From the NCBI GenBank assembly GCA_017554565.1, contig JAFZID010000095.1:1-33890 (forward strand): 33,890 bases of DNA, in the 5' to 3' direction. A model generated the notes under the pieces. That model searched no databases. It saw only the letters and a program-made list of their open reading frames with translations, and was not told the origin of the DNA. The stretch is from a bacterium (GTDB taxonomy: Bacteria > Auribacterota > UBA3054). Positions 16,662-22,588 of the stretch are shown here, piece after piece (within the stretch, counting starts at the first letter, position 1; the number at the start of each line of letters is the position of its first letter). The position numbers were made by a program, and so were the translations under genes.

Positions 16662-16698
16662 AAAAAAGGAACTTTGCTGTTAAGGCAGCAAAGTTCCT
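16662..16698 (-). terminator. Terminator of the subtilase operon (possibly shared with priA)
   Basis: A 13-bp stem (16667-16679 with 16686-16698) has a 6-base loop. On the reverse strand it is followed by six Ts (16662-16667 read as the complement), making a textbook terminator for the reverse-strand operon. On the forward strand the downstream sequence is only moderately T-rich, so it may also help end priA transcription. Confidence 0.85.
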
Positions 16699-16733: not shown

Positions 16734-18857
16734 TCAGCATTTGCGTCTGCGCGAGGCCAAAAGGGCCAAGGAGAGCAGGAAGGTCATGACGGCGGTCGGT
16801 TCGGGAACGACCTCGTTCAGGCCGGAAACGCAGAGCGCGAAATTCTGGGGGCCTTCCATAACGTTGAATCCGCTGACTTTCACCTCGATGCGGCTGCCGG
16901 CGGGGAAATCGTCCACTCTGCAGCGCTCGCAGTTGTTTTTATAGTCGTTGTGTCCCGATTTGCCGCCGGAGTAATAATCGGTTTCTCCGTCGCTGACGAT
17001 GATGTCAAGATCGTTGACCAGGGCGAAAGCCGCGCCAACCGTGCCGGGATAGTCGCTCCAGCAGAGCGTGGCGGAAACAGGGCCATCGCTTTCCTTGGTG
17101 AAGAAATAGGAAACGGTTTTCCCGGTTTCTTCTATCGTTCCTTCCGTGACGAAGAGCTTGCCGTATGAGGGGTTCAGGCTTTCGTTAAGATTGACATGCC
17201 CGAAGCCGTTCACCCAGTTGGGGACGACTTCCGGGATCTCGGTGCAGCTGTCAAACTGACCTTTGCCCATAGTCCTGGCGCCGTTGATGAGCAGCGCTTT
17301 CACCAAAGCGCAGGAGGGGGAGGCGATGTCGGTATTTTCTTTCAGGTACTGCAGGGCGCAGGCCGCCGCGCCGGAAGTCAGGGGCGTGGCCATGGAGGTT
17401 CCGAACATAAAAGTGTAATAAGATTTTCTTTCGCCATCGTTGTCATCGTCATAGAGCGATTCCGTGGAGTAGATCCAGGTGCCGGGCGCCACGATGTCAG
17501 GTTTCGCCCTGCCGTCCTTGGCGGGTCCGCGGCTGGAGAAGTAGGCCATGCCCTGCTGCGTTTCGTTGAAGGGATAAGCGGCCTTGTCGTTATAATAGGG
17601 ATTGTCGATCGGCAATTCCCAGAGCATGCCGTAAGTATAGGGGTATTCCGGACGGTAACTTTCCGAGGCGCCCACCGTCATGGAGTTTTTGGCGACCGCT
17701 TCGCAGCCAAGGGAAAAATTATCCTCAAGGTCTATCCTTTCGTTCTCGTTCCCGGCGGCGAACAATAAGAGTAGATCGGGATATTGTATAGACAGCGCGT
17801 CATAGTATTGAGCCGTGCTGGTGTATTCTCCCTTGAAACTGTAGAAGCTGGAGCCCCAGCTGTTGTTCATGACTCTTCCGCCGGCTTCGTAAGCGTTCGC
17901 GATGTCGTTGTCCGAGAGATCCGCAATAGAAGAGGAGGCGTCGCCCAGGCAGATGAAATAGAGATCAGCTTCCCTGGCTGTTCCGGCGTAAGTGCCGCCG
18001 TAATGAGCGCCCGTTCCCGTTGCGGAGCCCGCCACGTGGGTACCGTGACCGTTAAGATCTTTCCAGTCAGTCCTCGTGGTGTTCAATTCGCCCACGACGC
18101 CGATCACGTTTTTATCCTGGAAGTCGTCGTGTATGTTGGCGGTGTCTCCGCTGTCAAGGCCGGTATCCGTCACTATGACCATCACGCCTTTTCCGGTATA
18201 GCCGGAGTTGTTGGCGCGGTCAACGTTCATGAGATTGTCGCCTCTGGCGACGTCGTTCATAAACTTTTTCACAGGTTTTATTTCAACGCTCAAGACTTCG
18301 CTTTTTGCGGCGAGAGAAGAAACTAGAGAGATGGGAATACTCGCTTCGACAATAGGCGGCTCTTTGTGAAGCAGTTTGTATTCCGTCACGTTTTTCTCTT
18401 TTAAGAATTCCGCGACCGCGTCATAACTGTCGGCTGTCGCAAGACCGATCAGAACTTTTTCCGAAGCGTCAGCTTCCGCGGTCTTCTTCTGGGAGGTTAA
18501 GGCTACCTTGTATTCCGGCTTGTATTCGGAGCAATACAAAAGAGGGAAGAGTTCGCCCAGCTCTTTTACCTGTTCTTTGGTGGCCAGGAAGATATAGGCG
18601 TTCGGCGGAATGGTGCCGATCTTTATTAGCCCCAGTTCTTTTATCTCTTTCAGCTCCGCGGAACTGAAATTGTTTTCCGGCTGCACGATGAACTGATACT
18701 TTCCGGAAGCGGTGGGGGAGGCTTGGAATGTTTCAGCGTTCGCAACTTTCGGAGAAGCGGGATCGATGGTGGCGTTTGAGAGCCTGATGAGGCCGGGGTC
18801 GGCCAGCAGAGAAAGGCTCAGAGAACTGAGGAAAATTATGGCGAAGAGTTTTTTCAT
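16734..18857 (-). CDS. Secreted subtilisin-like serine protease (S8) with PEP-CTERM-like tail
   Basis: 707 residues. A signal peptide (residues 1-19) is followed by a propeptide-like region to about 200. The S8 catalytic domain has Asp231 (TDTGLDSG), His271 (NGHGTHVAG), oxyanion Asn370 (AAGNE) and Ser488 (FGTSMATP), so the triad is complete. Residues ~560-680 form a beta-sandwich of the type following the catalytic domain in KP-43-like subtilases (LVNDLDI, NN-E-C, GPQNFALCVSG). The C-terminus is PEP (685-687), a hydrophobic stretch (about 690-701) and RRRKC, which matches PEP-CTERM-type sorting signals read by exosortases; no exosortase is in the window. It starts four bases after the stop of a paralogous protease gene and is the last gene of the operon. 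Likely an extracellular or surface endopeptidase; substrate unknown. Confidence 0.93.
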   Translation of the reverse strand: MKKLFAIIFLSSLSLSLLADPGLIRLSNATIDPASPKVANAETFQASPTASGKYQFIVQPENNFSSAELKEIKELGLIKIGTIPPNAYIFLATKEQVKELGELFPLLYCSEYKPEYKVALTSQKKTAEADASEKVLIGLATADSYDAVAEFLKEKNVTEYKLLHKEPPIVEASIPISLVSSLAAKSEVLSVEIKPVKKFMNDVARGDNLMNVDRANNSGYTGKGVMVIVTDTGLDSGDTANIHDDFQDKNVIGVVGELNTTRTDWKDLNGHGTHVAGSATGTGAHYGGTYAGTAREADLYFICLGDASSSIADLSDNDIANAYEAGGRVMNNSWGSSFYSFKGEYTSTAQYYDALSIQYPDLLLLFAAGNENERIDLEDNFSLGCEAVAKNSMTVGASESYRPEYPYTYGMLWELPIDNPYYNDKAAYPFNETQQGMAYFSSRGPAKDGRAKPDIVAPGTWIYSTESLYDDDNDGERKSYYTFMFGTSMATPLTSGAAACALQYLKENTDIASPSCALVKALLINGARTMGKGQFDSCTEIPEVVPNWVNGFGHVNLNESLNPSYGKLFVTEGTIEETGKTVSYFFTKESDGPVSATLCWSDYPGTVGAAFALVNDLDIIVSDGETDYYSGGKSGHNDYKNNCERCRVDDFPAGSRIEVKVSGFNVMEGPQNFALCVSGLNEVVPEPTAVMTFLLSLALLASRRRKC

Positions 18858-18861
18858 GTTT

Positions 18862-20967
18862 TTATCTCGTTTTTCTGCTTATAAGCAGGGCTAAAAATAG
18901 AAATGCGAAAGTTAAGGTAGGTTCAGGCGTTGCTTCGTCCACGCCGCTTATCGCGATGGCGAAGCGCTGGGGACCTTCCATAATATTATACCCTTTTACG
19001 CTGATCTCGATGTTTTCGCTCGTGGGGAAATCTTTGATTAAGATCTGCTCCACGTTATTGTTGCTGTCGCTTTTTTTAGCGGCGCCGCCGGCGTAGTAAG
19101 TGTTTTTGCCGTCGGAAAGCGTCAGGTCGAGGTCGTTGACAAGCGCGCTCTCGGCGCCGGTGGTTCCGGGATAATCGTTCCAGACCAAGGTCACCCTGAC
19201 GGGGCCCGCTGTAGTTTTCGAACACGGGAAAGAGATCGTATCGCCGGAATTTGTGAGCGTTCCCTCTATAGTGAAGAGCTTCCCGCAGGCGGGAGAAATG
19301 CTCTCTGAAAGATCGATATGCCCGTAGCCGTTGACGTTGTTGGGAGTTTTGTCAGGGATCTCTACGTATCCTTCGTACTGCCCCGTACCCATGGATCTTG
19401 TGCCGTTCAAGGCCACGGCCTTGATGAGAGCGGAGGAGGGATTTTTTACGCCGTTCTCTTTGAGGAACTGCAAAATGTCGGCGCAGGCTCCGCTGACCAA
19501 TGGCGCGGCCATGGAAGTGCCTGACAAGTAAGTATAAAATCTTTTTCGCTCGTAGTCGTTGTAACCGTCGAAAACCGATTCGGTGGAGCAGATCAAGGTC
19601 CCGGGCGCCGCTATATCCGGTTTTATGCGCCCGTCGCTGCAGGGGCCTCGGCCGGAAAAACAGGCCATGCCCTGGTGGACGCCGTCTGAGGGGTAGGCGA
19701 TCCTGTCGTCTTTGAAAAAATCGTTGGCGGTCAGCCGTTCGCTTCCGTAAGTCTCGGCGCTGTCCGGGCGGCAGCTTTCCGCGGCCGCCACCACCAGGAC
19801 GTTTTTGCAGGCCGCGAAGGAATGGATGTTGATGTTGTCTTCCGTTTCGATGTCGTCGTTGGCGTTGCCGGCGGAGAAGACGATCAACATGTCGTCGTAA
19901 TTATGCGCTAGTTCGTCGAACCAGACGGATTTCCAATTGTAGCTGCCGGTGTAGTCGGTGTCGCTCCAGCTGTTGTTCATGATGCGGGAGCCCGCGTCGT
20001 AGGCGGCCTTGACCTCGTCGTCTTTAACATAGCAAAGGCTGTAATCCTGGCAGCCGACGCAGATAAAGTATAGCGAAGCGTCGGGAGCCGCGCCGGCGTA
20101 CTTGCCGTTTTCAGCCGCGCCGGTTCCAACGGCTGAGCCCGCCACGTGGGTGCCGTGCCCGGCTATGTCGTAGCCCCAGTACTGGTCGCTTCCGCTGCTC
20201 AAAACGATCGTCACGTCTTTATCCTGGAAATCCGGATGAAAGTTGCTGTTGGGATTGCCGCTGTCAAGCCCGGTGTCAACGACGGCGACCTTAACGTCCT
20301 TCCCTGTGTAGCCGGTCTTGTTGACTTTTTCTATGTTCGTTAAACCATCGCCCTTCGCCACGTCATTGTTCGTTTTCAGAACGCCTTTTTCCGCAATGTC
20401 AATGACGGCGCTCAGCTTGGCAAGCCTGCTTGCCAATTCTTTTCCAATCACGGCTTCCATAATGAAGGGATCGCTGTGGATGACCTGGCAATCCGTCGCT
20501 CCGTTTTCCAAAAGGAAATCGTTGACCTCGCGATATTCTTCTTCGCTCGACAATATTATGGCCGCTTTGAAAGTCTGGCTTATGGAGGCTATCTTGGCGG
20601 ACTGGTAACGGCCGGTCTTGTATTCCGGCAGATATTCGCCGGCGTAGATGATCTCAAACCGCGCTTTCAAATTATCGATCTCGCTAGGCGTAGCCAGCGC
20701 AAGATAAGCGTTGGGCGGGAAGAAGCCCGTTATCTTGACGCCGAGGCTTTCCACGGCCTTCAATTCCGTAAAATTGAAATTCTTTTTGGGCTGCACGATG
20801 TACTGGTATTTTCCGGAAACGGTGGGAGCACACTTTGGCTCGGCGACGCTTTGCAGCGAAGGATCTTTGGGGTCTATTGTATTGTCCCTTAGGCGAATGA
20901 CGCCGGGATCGGCCAGAAGGCTTAGGCTGGAAATCAAAAAAAGAAGAGCAAAAGCAAGGTTTTTCAT
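18862..20967 (-). CDS. Secreted subtilisin-like serine protease (S8), paralogue with PEP-CTERM-like tail
   Basis: 701 residues, colinear with the downstream protease. It has a signal peptide ending SLLADPGVIRL, a propeptide-like segment to about 200 and a complete triad: Asp231 (VDTGLDSG), His271 (AGHGTHVAG) and Ser485 (SGTSMAAP), with oxyanion Asn368. The C-terminal beta-sandwich has ALVNDLDLTLSDG and GPQRFAIAISG. The tail is PEP (681-683), a hydrophobic run and SRKTR. The shared layout with frequent substitutions points to an old tandem duplication. It has more cysteines than its partner, possibly disulfides. It begins one base after the aminomutase stop, and its GGAG ribosome binding site lies inside the end of that gene, so the two are translationally coupled. 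Confidence 0.93.
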   Translation of the reverse strand: MKNLAFALLFLISSLSLLADPGVIRLRDNTIDPKDPSLQSVAEPKCAPTVSGKYQYIVQPKKNFNFTELKAVESLGVKITGFFPPNAYLALATPSEIDNLKARFEIIYAGEYLPEYKTGRYQSAKIASISQTFKAAIILSSEEEYREVNDFLLENGATDCQVIHSDPFIMEAVIGKELASRLAKLSAVIDIAEKGVLKTNNDVAKGDGLTNIEKVNKTGYTGKDVKVAVVDTGLDSGNPNSNFHPDFQDKDVTIVLSSGSDQYWGYDIAGHGTHVAGSAVGTGAAENGKYAGAAPDASLYFICVGCQDYSLCYVKDDEVKAAYDAGSRIMNNSWSDTDYTGSYNWKSVWFDELAHNYDDMLIVFSAGNANDDIETEDNINIHSFAACKNVLVVAAAESCRPDSAETYGSERLTANDFFKDDRIAYPSDGVHQGMACFSGRGPCSDGRIKPDIAAPGTLICSTESVFDGYNDYERKRFYTYLSGTSMAAPLVSGACADILQFLKENGVKNPSSALIKAVALNGTRSMGTGQYEGYVEIPDKTPNNVNGYGHIDLSESISPACGKLFTIEGTLTNSGDTISFPCSKTTAGPVRVTLVWNDYPGTTGAESALVNDLDLTLSDGKNTYYAGGAAKKSDSNNNVEQILIKDFPTSENIEISVKGYNIMEGPQRFAIAISGVDEATPEPTLTFAFLFLALLISRKTR

Positions 20968-20968
20968 G

Positions 20969-21982
20969 TTATATCTCCGAAAATACGATCTCGTTTTCTT
21001 TTGACGTGGCGTAGGAAAGGGGGACTTTGCCGTCCAGGGCGGGGCGGTCCACGATGAAGGTTGGGATAGCGATGCCGCTTAAGCGTTCGCGAAGTTCCTT
21101 CATGATCTTAAGGCCTGTCTCAAGCGGCGTCCAGAAATGCTCCGTGCCTGGGATCTTGTCGCACTGGAAAAGATAATAGGGCCGGACGCGGTTAATGACG
21201 AGCAGGCGGAAAAGTTTTTCCAATGTTTCCGTATTGTCGTTGACGCCTTTCAGAAGAACTGTCTGATTGTTGATGGGGAAGCCGCTGTCGGCTAATTTGC
21301 CTAAGGCTTCCTTGGCTTCTTCCGTTACTTCCTTGGGGTGGTTGAAATGAGTCTGGATCCAGATAGGGGAGAAGGCCTTCATTTTTTGGCAGAGATCATC
21401 GGTAATGCGCATGGGGCAGGTGACGGGCATTCTGGTGCCGAGGCGCAATATTTTAACGCCCTGCTTTTTAAAGGAAGAGATGATCTCTAATATTTCGTCG
21501 TCGGGAAGAGTTAGGGGATCGCCGCCGGAAATGATGATCTCCTCTATCTCAGGATGATCTTTTAAGTAGTCCAGGACTTTAGGCAGAGTTTCGCGCCAGG
21601 AGGAGCAGGCGTTCTTTATGATCTGCCATCTTCTGGTGCAGTGGCGGCAGCGGGAGGCGCAGTTAAGCGTCGCGGTATAGACGGCCCGGTCGTGATAGCG
21701 CCTGATAAGGCCTGGCACCGGCATGAATTTCTCCTCTTCCAGAGGGTCGCAGGAATTCTGTTCGTTCTTAATTTCCTCTGGGGAGGGGACGGTCATGGCG
21801 AAGATGGGGTCGCTGTGGTCAGCTTTTTCTATCAGCGAAGCATAGTATGGTGTGACGAACATCCTCATTGATATTTGAGAAACATCGCTGCCTTGAGGAC
21901 AGGGCAGGCCGTTAAGCTCGCAAATCTCTTGTAATGTTGTTAATCTATTTTTCAGCTGCTGCTGCCAGGAATCTGTTTTCAT
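20969..21982 (-). CDS. Lysine 2,3-aminomutase-family radical SAM enzyme (KamA-like)
   Basis: 337 residues. C108, C112 and C115 (CASRCRHC) bind the radical-SAM cluster, and SGGDPLTLPD is the conserved SAM-side motif. Lys319 in VDRPALDGK aligns with the PLP lysine of lysine 2,3-aminomutase. Asp275 (QCDKIPG-EHF) and Asp312 (VDRP) match the two aspartates that grip the lysine side-chain amine in the clostridial enzyme, so a lysine-type substrate is likely. The length is that of EpmB, the EF-P lysine aminomutase, and lacks the long C-terminal part of catabolic KamA, yet EpmB reads differently around the PLP lysine. Assignment between free-lysine and EF-P activity therefore stays open. Neither ablB nor efp is present. 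It starts six bases after the RelE-like toxin gene and runs into the subtilase gene. Confidence 0.88.
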   Translation of the reverse strand: MKTDSWQQQLKNRLTTLQEICELNGLPCPQGSDVSQISMRMFVTPYYASLIEKADHSDPIFAMTVPSPEEIKNEQNSCDPLEEEKFMPVPGLIRRYHDRAVYTATLNCASRCRHCTRRWQIIKNACSSWRETLPKVLDYLKDHPEIEEIIISGGDPLTLPDDEILEIISSFKKQGVKILRLGTRMPVTCPMRITDDLCQKMKAFSPIWIQTHFNHPKEVTEEAKEALGKLADSGFPINNQTVLLKGVNDNTETLEKLFRLLVINRVRPYYLFQCDKIPGTEHFWTPLETGLKIMKELRERLSGIAIPTFIVDRPALDGKVPLSYATSKENEIVFSEI

Positions 21983-21988
21983 AATTTT

Positions 21989-22255
21989 TTAGTATCTATC
22001 TAGAATGTCATGATGACCAACATCTAATAAAACAATAATTTCAGTACCTTCAAAATACCATATTATACGAACATTCATATTAACACTGCATTCATAAAGA
22101 TCATGAGTTCCTTTTATGCGTTTAACACGTAGAGATGGGTGCAAGGGGTTGGCTATTAAAAATACTAGTTTGTTTTTCAGCTGCCTTTTTTCTATAGAGT
22201 TTAGTGCTTCATAGTGTTTTAAAAATCTTTCAGTGTATGTAATTTTAAAAGGCAT
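21989..22255 (-). CDS. RelE/ParE-superfamily toxin
   Basis: 88 residues with the compact RelE fold pattern: an N-terminal strand (FKITYTERFLKHYEAL), two helices, NPLHPSLRVKRIKGTHDLYE, NVRIIWYFEG, and an ending VLLDVGHHDILDRY that matches the 'G.H...Y' end of ribosome-dependent mRNA interferases such as YafQ/RelE. The likely role is growth inhibition by mRNA cleavage when free of antitoxin. The start overlaps the antitoxin stop by one base (TAATG). The gene is AT-rich compared with its neighbours, typical of mobile toxin-antitoxin pairs. No ribosome-cleavage residues were verified, so an inactive toxin is possible. Confidence 0.85.
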   Translation of the reverse strand: MPFKITYTERFLKHYEALNSIEKRQLKNKLVFLIANPLHPSLRVKRIKGTHDLYECSVNMNVRIIWYFEGTEIIVLLDVGHHDILDRY

Positions 22256-22515
22256 TAATGTTTGTCTAATTTTTCGAAGAGGGCGTCAAGGTCGTCGAAA
22301 ACAGGCTGCTTGCCGGAAGCGATCTTTTCTTTGATCCCGTACACTTCTTTTTTTAGTTCCTCGACATAACTTTTGGGATAGACGCTTACCGGGATGATGT
22401 AGATCACCCCGTTCTTTTCTGATATGTCTATCTTGTCACCCTCGGAAAGACCAATCTTGTTTACGATGTCCTTGGGGATCGTTATCTGAGATTTCTGTCT
22501 GAATTCCGTTAACAT
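22255..22515 (-). CDS. AbrB/MazE-type antitoxin
   Basis: 86 residues. The N-terminal ~45 residues are a swapped-hairpin AbrB DNA-binding domain (KSQITIPKDIVNKIGLSEGDKIDI). The charged helical C-terminal half (SYVEELKKEVYGIKEKI...DDLDALFEKLDKH) is the likely toxin-binding part. It precedes and overlaps the toxin gene, the standard antitoxin-first order that permits autoregulation. The ribosome binding site AGGAG lies 8-9 bases before the ATG. It heads the reverse-strand run that continues into the aminomutase and protease genes. Confidence 0.85.
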   Translation of the reverse strand: MLTEFRQKSQITIPKDIVNKIGLSEGDKIDISEKNGVIYIIPVSVYPKSYVEELKKEVYGIKEKIASGKQPVFDDLDALFEKLDKH

Positions 22516-22535
22516 TTTAAGCTCCTGTAGCGTTA

Positions 22536-22550
22536 GTTAGAAATTCTTAC
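22536..22550. promoter_or_regulatory. Dyad-symmetric operator candidate of the toxin-antitoxin promoter
   Basis: GTTAGAAATTCTTAC is a 15-base imperfect palindrome with six of seven pairs matching around the central A. It lies between the predicted -10 (22561-22566) and the antitoxin start, where an AbrB-type antitoxin would bind to repress its own operon. Confidence 0.45.
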
Positions 22551-22560
22551 TTTCCAACTT

Positions 22561-22588
22561 ATTGTAGCATAATTTTAAATATAAGCAA
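22561..22588 (-). promoter_or_regulatory. Promoter of the antitoxin-toxin-aminomutase-protease run
   Basis: Read on the reverse strand: TTGCTT (22583-22588), a 16-base spacer, then TACAAT (22561-22566) immediately preceded by TGC as an extended -10. No other reverse-strand promoter is evident between here and the proteases, so all five genes may depend on it. Confidence 0.6.

Follow-up and report, generated by a model that had tools for sequence, protein, structure and literature searches.

A variable toxin-antitoxin pair, a KamA-family gene and PEP-CTERM-tailed subtilases adjoin at one locus of a bacterial genus

Introduction

Does a tight row of five genes, led by a toxin-antitoxin pair and running through an aminomutase-like gene into two subtilases, work as one unit, or do separate elements merely adjoin? 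The question is raised by a window of 33,890 nucleotides, the whole stretch of DNA analysed here, which forms contig C85 in a draft genome of 2.17 Mb. We compared this genome with seven relatives of the same genus (G001 to G007), giving a set of eight, all of them drafts; those relatives that carry names are bins assembled from gut metagenomes of ruminants (water buffalo, yak, sheep and goat). The answer we consider likely is that three separate things lie side by side, namely an old toxin-antitoxin cassette in the course of being lost, a kamA gene in the role of EpmB, and an array of PEP-CTERM-tailed subtilases.

Results

On the minus strand, from 22515 to 16734, the five open reading frames follow one another head to tail, with gaps of -1, 6, 1 and 4 bases. 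Their coordinates, together with those of one promoter and one terminator, agree with the layout given by a first-pass annotation of this DNA, and family matches and protein tails confirm the genes it had named: a toxin-antitoxin pair, a lysine-aminomutase-like enzyme and two PEP-CTERM-tailed subtilases. The features are as follows.

22535..22569, minus strand: predicted antitoxin promoter and operator, with an extended -10 element TGCTACAAT and an inverted repeat AGTTGGAA-N9-TTCTAACT
22255..22515, minus strand: AbrB/MazE-type antitoxin, 86 aa (PF04014, 1.7e-10; TIGR01439, 4.4e-10)
21989..22255, minus strand: predicted RelE/YafQ-type toxin, 88 aa (TIGR02385; RelE of PDB 4v7k)
20969..21982, minus strand: KamA-family radical SAM enzyme, 337 aa (TIGR00238, 275.7 bits; PDB 2a5h, 8.9e-83)
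18862..20967, minus strand: subtilase S8, 701 aa, with a signal peptide-like start and a PEP-CTERM-like tail (PF00082, 3.9e-42)
16734..18857, minus strand: second subtilase S8, 707 aa, with a PEP-CTERM-like tail (PF00082, 6.8e-44)
16667..16698, minus strand: intrinsic terminator after the last subtilase, with a 13-pair stem and a T tract

The KamA protein clears the TIGR00238 cut-off of 199.2 bits. In the alignment with PDB 2a5h it keeps the CxxxCxxC motif, the PLP lysine, and both of the aspartates that hold the side chain of lysine in the aminomutase; it is without most of the LAM C-terminal domain. No other KamA-family gene was found in this genome, and the same is true of nearly all genomes of the genus. 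On contig C120, efp is directly followed by epmA, which encodes an EpmA-sized GenX protein of 293 aa (score 274.7, just below the cut-off of 286.9). The encoded EF-P has Lys34 in a KPGKGQA loop, as in E. coli, with an overall identity of 47%. In E. coli, Lys34 of EF-P is beta-lysylated (PMC6544042). A search of the eight genomes for ablB found none, and the osmolyte route to N-acetyl-beta-lysine was rejected on this ground. Because the KamA gene is single, efp and epmA are adjacent and ablB is absent, kamA most likely acts as EpmB in the beta-lysylation of EF-P, to judge from gene content. The protein stays below the equivalog cut-offs of both EpmB (TIGR03821, 233.8 of 369.3 bits) and AblA (TIGR03820, 326 of 525 bits, with no AblB partner in the eight genomes). 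The models for lysine and glutamate aminomutases give it higher scores than the EpmB model does, and its sequence is closer to lysine 2,3-aminomutase than to EpmB.

Neither efp nor epmA was seen in G001, but the completeness of this genome is only 83%. In most genomes of the phylum that bear KamA and lie outside the order, the GenX model matches only full-length proteins of lysyl-tRNA synthetase size; we therefore argue the link between KamA and EpmA for the order and not for the phylum. The gene order seen here was not found beyond the genus, where kamA genes at the level of the order lie among other genes. In order-level relatives (L049:1284-3901, L050:6501-8913, L051:6361-8833) a long, lysine-aminomutase-like KamA adjoins a D-Ala-D-Ala-ligase-like ATP-grasp gene, which suggests a different use of beta-lysine. 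Near efp-epmA of the window's own genome (L124:5-3422) there are two genes that by eye resemble those of formylglycine-generating enzymes, at least one of them with an internal PEP-CTERM-like segment.

The antitoxin, which itself has a single match in this genome, matches the MazE/AbrB family with 41 bits, and the toxin matches RelE_StbE (TIGR02385) with 29.9 bits against a cut-off of 27.9, as well as RelE of PDB 4v7k (E=3e-4). An AbrB/MazE-fold antitoxin first, with an adjacent toxin of the RelE superfamily, is the gene content of a type II AbrB-RelE system, a known and widely distributed combination (PMC2701414). The G+C content is 30% in the toxin and 42% in the antitoxin, compared to 51-54% in the neighbouring genes and 54% in the window; the AT-rich cassette therefore probably came from outside at some earlier time. 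Distant relatives of the toxin and antitoxin have neither kamA nor an S8 gene within about 1.5 kb.

The extended -10 element TGCTACAAT occupies 22569-22561, and the inverted repeat AGTTGGAA-N9-TTCTAACT follows directly at 22559-22535. Operator and promoter are kept in G001, G002, G004 and G006, that is, in all antitoxin-bearing relatives with upstream sequence available, and are missing in G005 and G007, where the antitoxin is also absent. A repeat that adjoins the -10 element and is conserved with the antitoxin is the predicted arrangement of a type II AbrB-RelE operator overlapping its promoter. A whole-genome search returned this site as the only one with 0 mismatches, and the numbers of weak matches were similar in a reversed control, so that an antitoxin regulon across the genome was rejected. 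The single site with 1 mismatch (C120:20030-20054), although near efp-epmA, lies inside a phosphofructokinase-like open reading frame; given this position and the reversed control, we attribute it to chance.

How constant is the locus? In all seven relatives it adjoins pstS, as well as priA where the contig extends that far, and contains kamA (74-88% identical) with at least one subtilase next. The pair itself is variable. It is complete in this genome and G002 (2 of 8), reduced to the antitoxin in G001, G003, G004 and G006 (4 of 8), and absent from G005 and G007 (2 of 8). The toxin was searched for elsewhere in the toxin-less genomes and not found. Two contigs of G007 overlap with identical sequence inside kamA, and therefore its kamA is one gene and the absence of the pair is real as far as the assembly goes. 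G005 has kamA and two subtilases without the pair at a clean junction, and G007 likewise with an extra AAA gene. A search for the same order in the relatives showed that the five genes with these exact junctions occur in this genome alone among the eight.

Could the antitoxin have outlived its toxin as a regulator? Orphan antitoxins are common in other bacteria (PMC7192599). Between G001 and G006, which are both toxin-less and share one kind of junction, the antitoxin genes differ by 24 synonymous and 2 non-synonymous changes (omega 0.014, compared to 0.135 for kamA). If the toxin was lost once in the ancestor of these two genomes, the orphan would have been strongly constrained since; separate recent losses would make the ratio say less. 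The antitoxin of G004 (L044:1570-1830) is mosaic-looking: its N-terminal half is almost identical to the DNA of G002 and G003, and its C-terminal half is very different at synonymous sites, which looks like recombination. According to one explanation, the AbrB protein was kept after toxin loss as a dedicated repressor of kamA and would link the capacity for EF-P modification to the antitoxin level. The antitoxin is indeed retained without toxin in four genomes, and in three of them, those with a joined upstream region, together with operator and promoter, its omega is low between G001 and G006, and the N-terminal DNA-binding half is identical in the proteins of G002, G003 and G004. However, G005 and G007 manage without the antitoxin, the losses may be recent, the constraint could be older than the loss or stem from protection against toxins that arrive from outside, and the C-terminal half in G004 is strongly diverged; we regard this explanation as conceivable, if rather doubtful. 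Carried further, it would make the toxin-freed antitoxin an autoregulated repressor of an EpmB-type gene, whose unstable level sets EF-P beta-lysylation, with the toxin-bearing genomes as an intermediate state. We hold this extension to be unlikely. Within the library of papers searched, none links EpmB, EF-P and toxin-antitoxin systems.

Our preferred reading of the pair, an old cassette that is being lost, is drawn from the junctions. Alignment of the toxin-less junctions shows two kinds, both clean. In the first, seen in G001 and G006, the end of the antitoxin gene is joined to the bases just before kamA at AATAATTATG. The junction of G004 reads TAATGCC and then AATTATG, and that of G003 reads TAACGCC; in this genome TAATGCC comprises the stop codon of the antitoxin and, overlapping with it, the toxin gene's first five bases. 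Junctions of two kinds suggest that the toxin was lost at least twice, and because both are clean and one keeps the first bases of the toxin, loss in place appears to fit better than recent insertion. The toxins of this genome and G002, which belong to different clades of the genus, are 81% identical with saturated synonymous sites, and the kamA genes of the same two genomes are 76% identical; these values fit a pair already present in the common ancestor of both clades. The first-pass annotation had offered a recent insertion of the pair upstream of kamA as an alternative. In outline the pair is such an add-on; its presence in both clades and the identity of 81% between the toxins speak against recency. 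The number of losses is approximate, since the priA tree disagrees with the pstS-pstC tree, a sign of recombination between lineages at the locus, and since draft genomes add uncertainty. The N-terminus of KamA (window 20969-21982) varies among relatives with the presence or absence of the pair (MKTDSWQQQL, MIINNRL, MNDWQKRL), which looks as though the start of the protein had been reset when the cassette was gained or lost.

Independent recent insertions of the pair, or of the toxin, upstream of kamA in this genome and G002 would account for a toxin found in only two genomes from different clades, for the low G+C content of the pair, and for the KamA start that differs with its presence. Such insertions are improbable in our view, because the position is the same in both genomes, the saturated toxin divergence is about that of neighbouring genes, and G003 and G004 contain an apparent remnant of the toxin start.

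The two subtilases (Peptidase_S8 matches of 145 and 151 bits) both keep the GHGTH and GTSMA motifs, and a paralogue search placed the second at about 49% identity to the first. Judged by eye, both end in a PEP motif followed by a hydrophobic stretch and basic residues, and an exosortase gene is present in seven of the eight genomes, including this one, so that tail and sorting enzyme occur together. Subtilase matches number 9-16 per genome of the genus, several in tandem arrays, and the other arrays have no antitoxin; set against a single antitoxin match, these numbers imply that the proteases are not generally tied to the pair. A defence role of the subtilases was rejected, as PADLOC IetS and subtilase matches were weak or partial.

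In six of the seven relatives, kamA is followed by an intergenic stretch with promoter-like sequence. In G006, G002 and G007 this is TTGACT-17-TATAAT (11 of 12 consensus bases) before an extra AAA_14-DUF4143 gene, and in G003, G004 and G005 it is TGCTACAAT or TGCTATAAT, some 40 bases ahead of the protease, lacking a clear -35 element and not called by the scan in G005. A one-base junction between kamA and protease is confined to this genome and G001. The terminator structure at 16698-16667 is also visible at the G006 junction. The first subtilase of G001 (L041:4058-4353) is cut to its two ends by an internal deletion. The AAA_14-DUF4143 gene lies between kamA and the proteases in three relatives (L042:4511-5668, L043:9345-10499, L047:2452-3606), and its L042 copy matches the PADLOC candidate defence family PDC-S01 with 296 bits. 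Accessory cassettes of two kinds thus enter this locus.

Because of the one-base junction and the lack of a strong internal promoter, a single transcript is possible in this genome. The coupling of toxin release to secreted proteolysis that had been proposed for the five genes found no support as a conserved trait, given the variable pair and the promoter-like spacers. Both observations that the first-pass annotation had listed as counting against its model were made in relatives, namely a clean junction where the pair is absent and promoter-like sequence ahead of the genes after kamA. A functional unit, in which stress, acting through an autoregulated toxin-antitoxin promoter, would switch the aminomutase and the secreted proteases at the same time as the toxin is released, is very improbable: although in this genome the genes are spaced by -1, 6, 1 and 4 bases between a single strong promoter and a single terminator, and the operator is conserved together with the antitoxin, the order and junctions occur here only, the toxin is missing from six of eight genomes and the pair from two, promoter-like sequence parts kamA from the proteases in six of eight, the operator is unique, and other subtilase arrays lack the antitoxin. 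The five-gene row is a neighbourhood accident in one genome and no conserved system.

Discussion

For the three separate, adjoining elements that we favour, we propose the following course of events. An AbrB-RelE cassette with its own promoter and operator would have stood between pstS and kamA already before the two clades of the genus diverged. Its loss is apparently under way, at least twice with the toxin going first, which would leave antitoxin and operator directly before kamA. The kamA gene, always present at the locus, would make (R)-beta-lysine for EpmA to attach to EF-P. The subtilases would be one of several tandem PEP-CTERM-tailed arrays of a family that has expanded in the genus. 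In this genome the one-base junction probably puts the proteases into the same read-through transcript, which may be repressed by the antitoxin or the toxin-antitoxin complex, as in ordinary toxin-antitoxin autoregulation. The order and families of the genes, the variability of the pair, the junctions, the conserved operator and the joint occurrence of kamA with efp and epmA are observed; transcript, repression and enzyme product are what we infer here.

Eight draft genomes thus suffice to tell the constant members of a striking neighbourhood from those that come and go. What deserves further interest is the orphan antitoxin, retained with its operator before an EpmB-type gene. Should kamA indeed be under the control of the antitoxin once the toxin is gone, the genus would offer a natural series of pair, antitoxin alone and neither, in which to study how an antitoxin turns into the regulator of a housekeeping gene, here one for translation.

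How does the locus compare with known systems? As in PEP-CTERM/exosortase sorting, the proteases have the PEP motif, the hydrophobic stretch and the basic end, and the genome has an exosortase gene, but no curated PEP-CTERM model matched at the family-search thresholds used. With EpmB (YjeK) the KamA protein shares its short form without most of the LAM C-terminal domain (337 aa compared to 342 aa) and a genome that has epmA and an efp with the KPGKGQA loop. On the other hand, it is only 32% identical to E. coli EpmB, falls below the EpmB equivalog cut-off, and keeps both lysine 2,3-aminomutase aspartates, of which the second has no visible counterpart in the alignment of E. coli EpmB. The pair resembles type II AbrB/MazE-RelE systems in both families, in the 1-base overlap and in the palindromic predicted operator under the promoter; it differs in that kamA follows without a terminator and in that most relatives have lost the toxin. 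Finally, the orphan antitoxins of a Klebsiella survey (PMC7192599) are likewise retained in the same context without the toxin, whereas in the present genus the predicted operator is kept as well, the antitoxin is the first gene before an enzyme gene, and this arrangement extends over several species.
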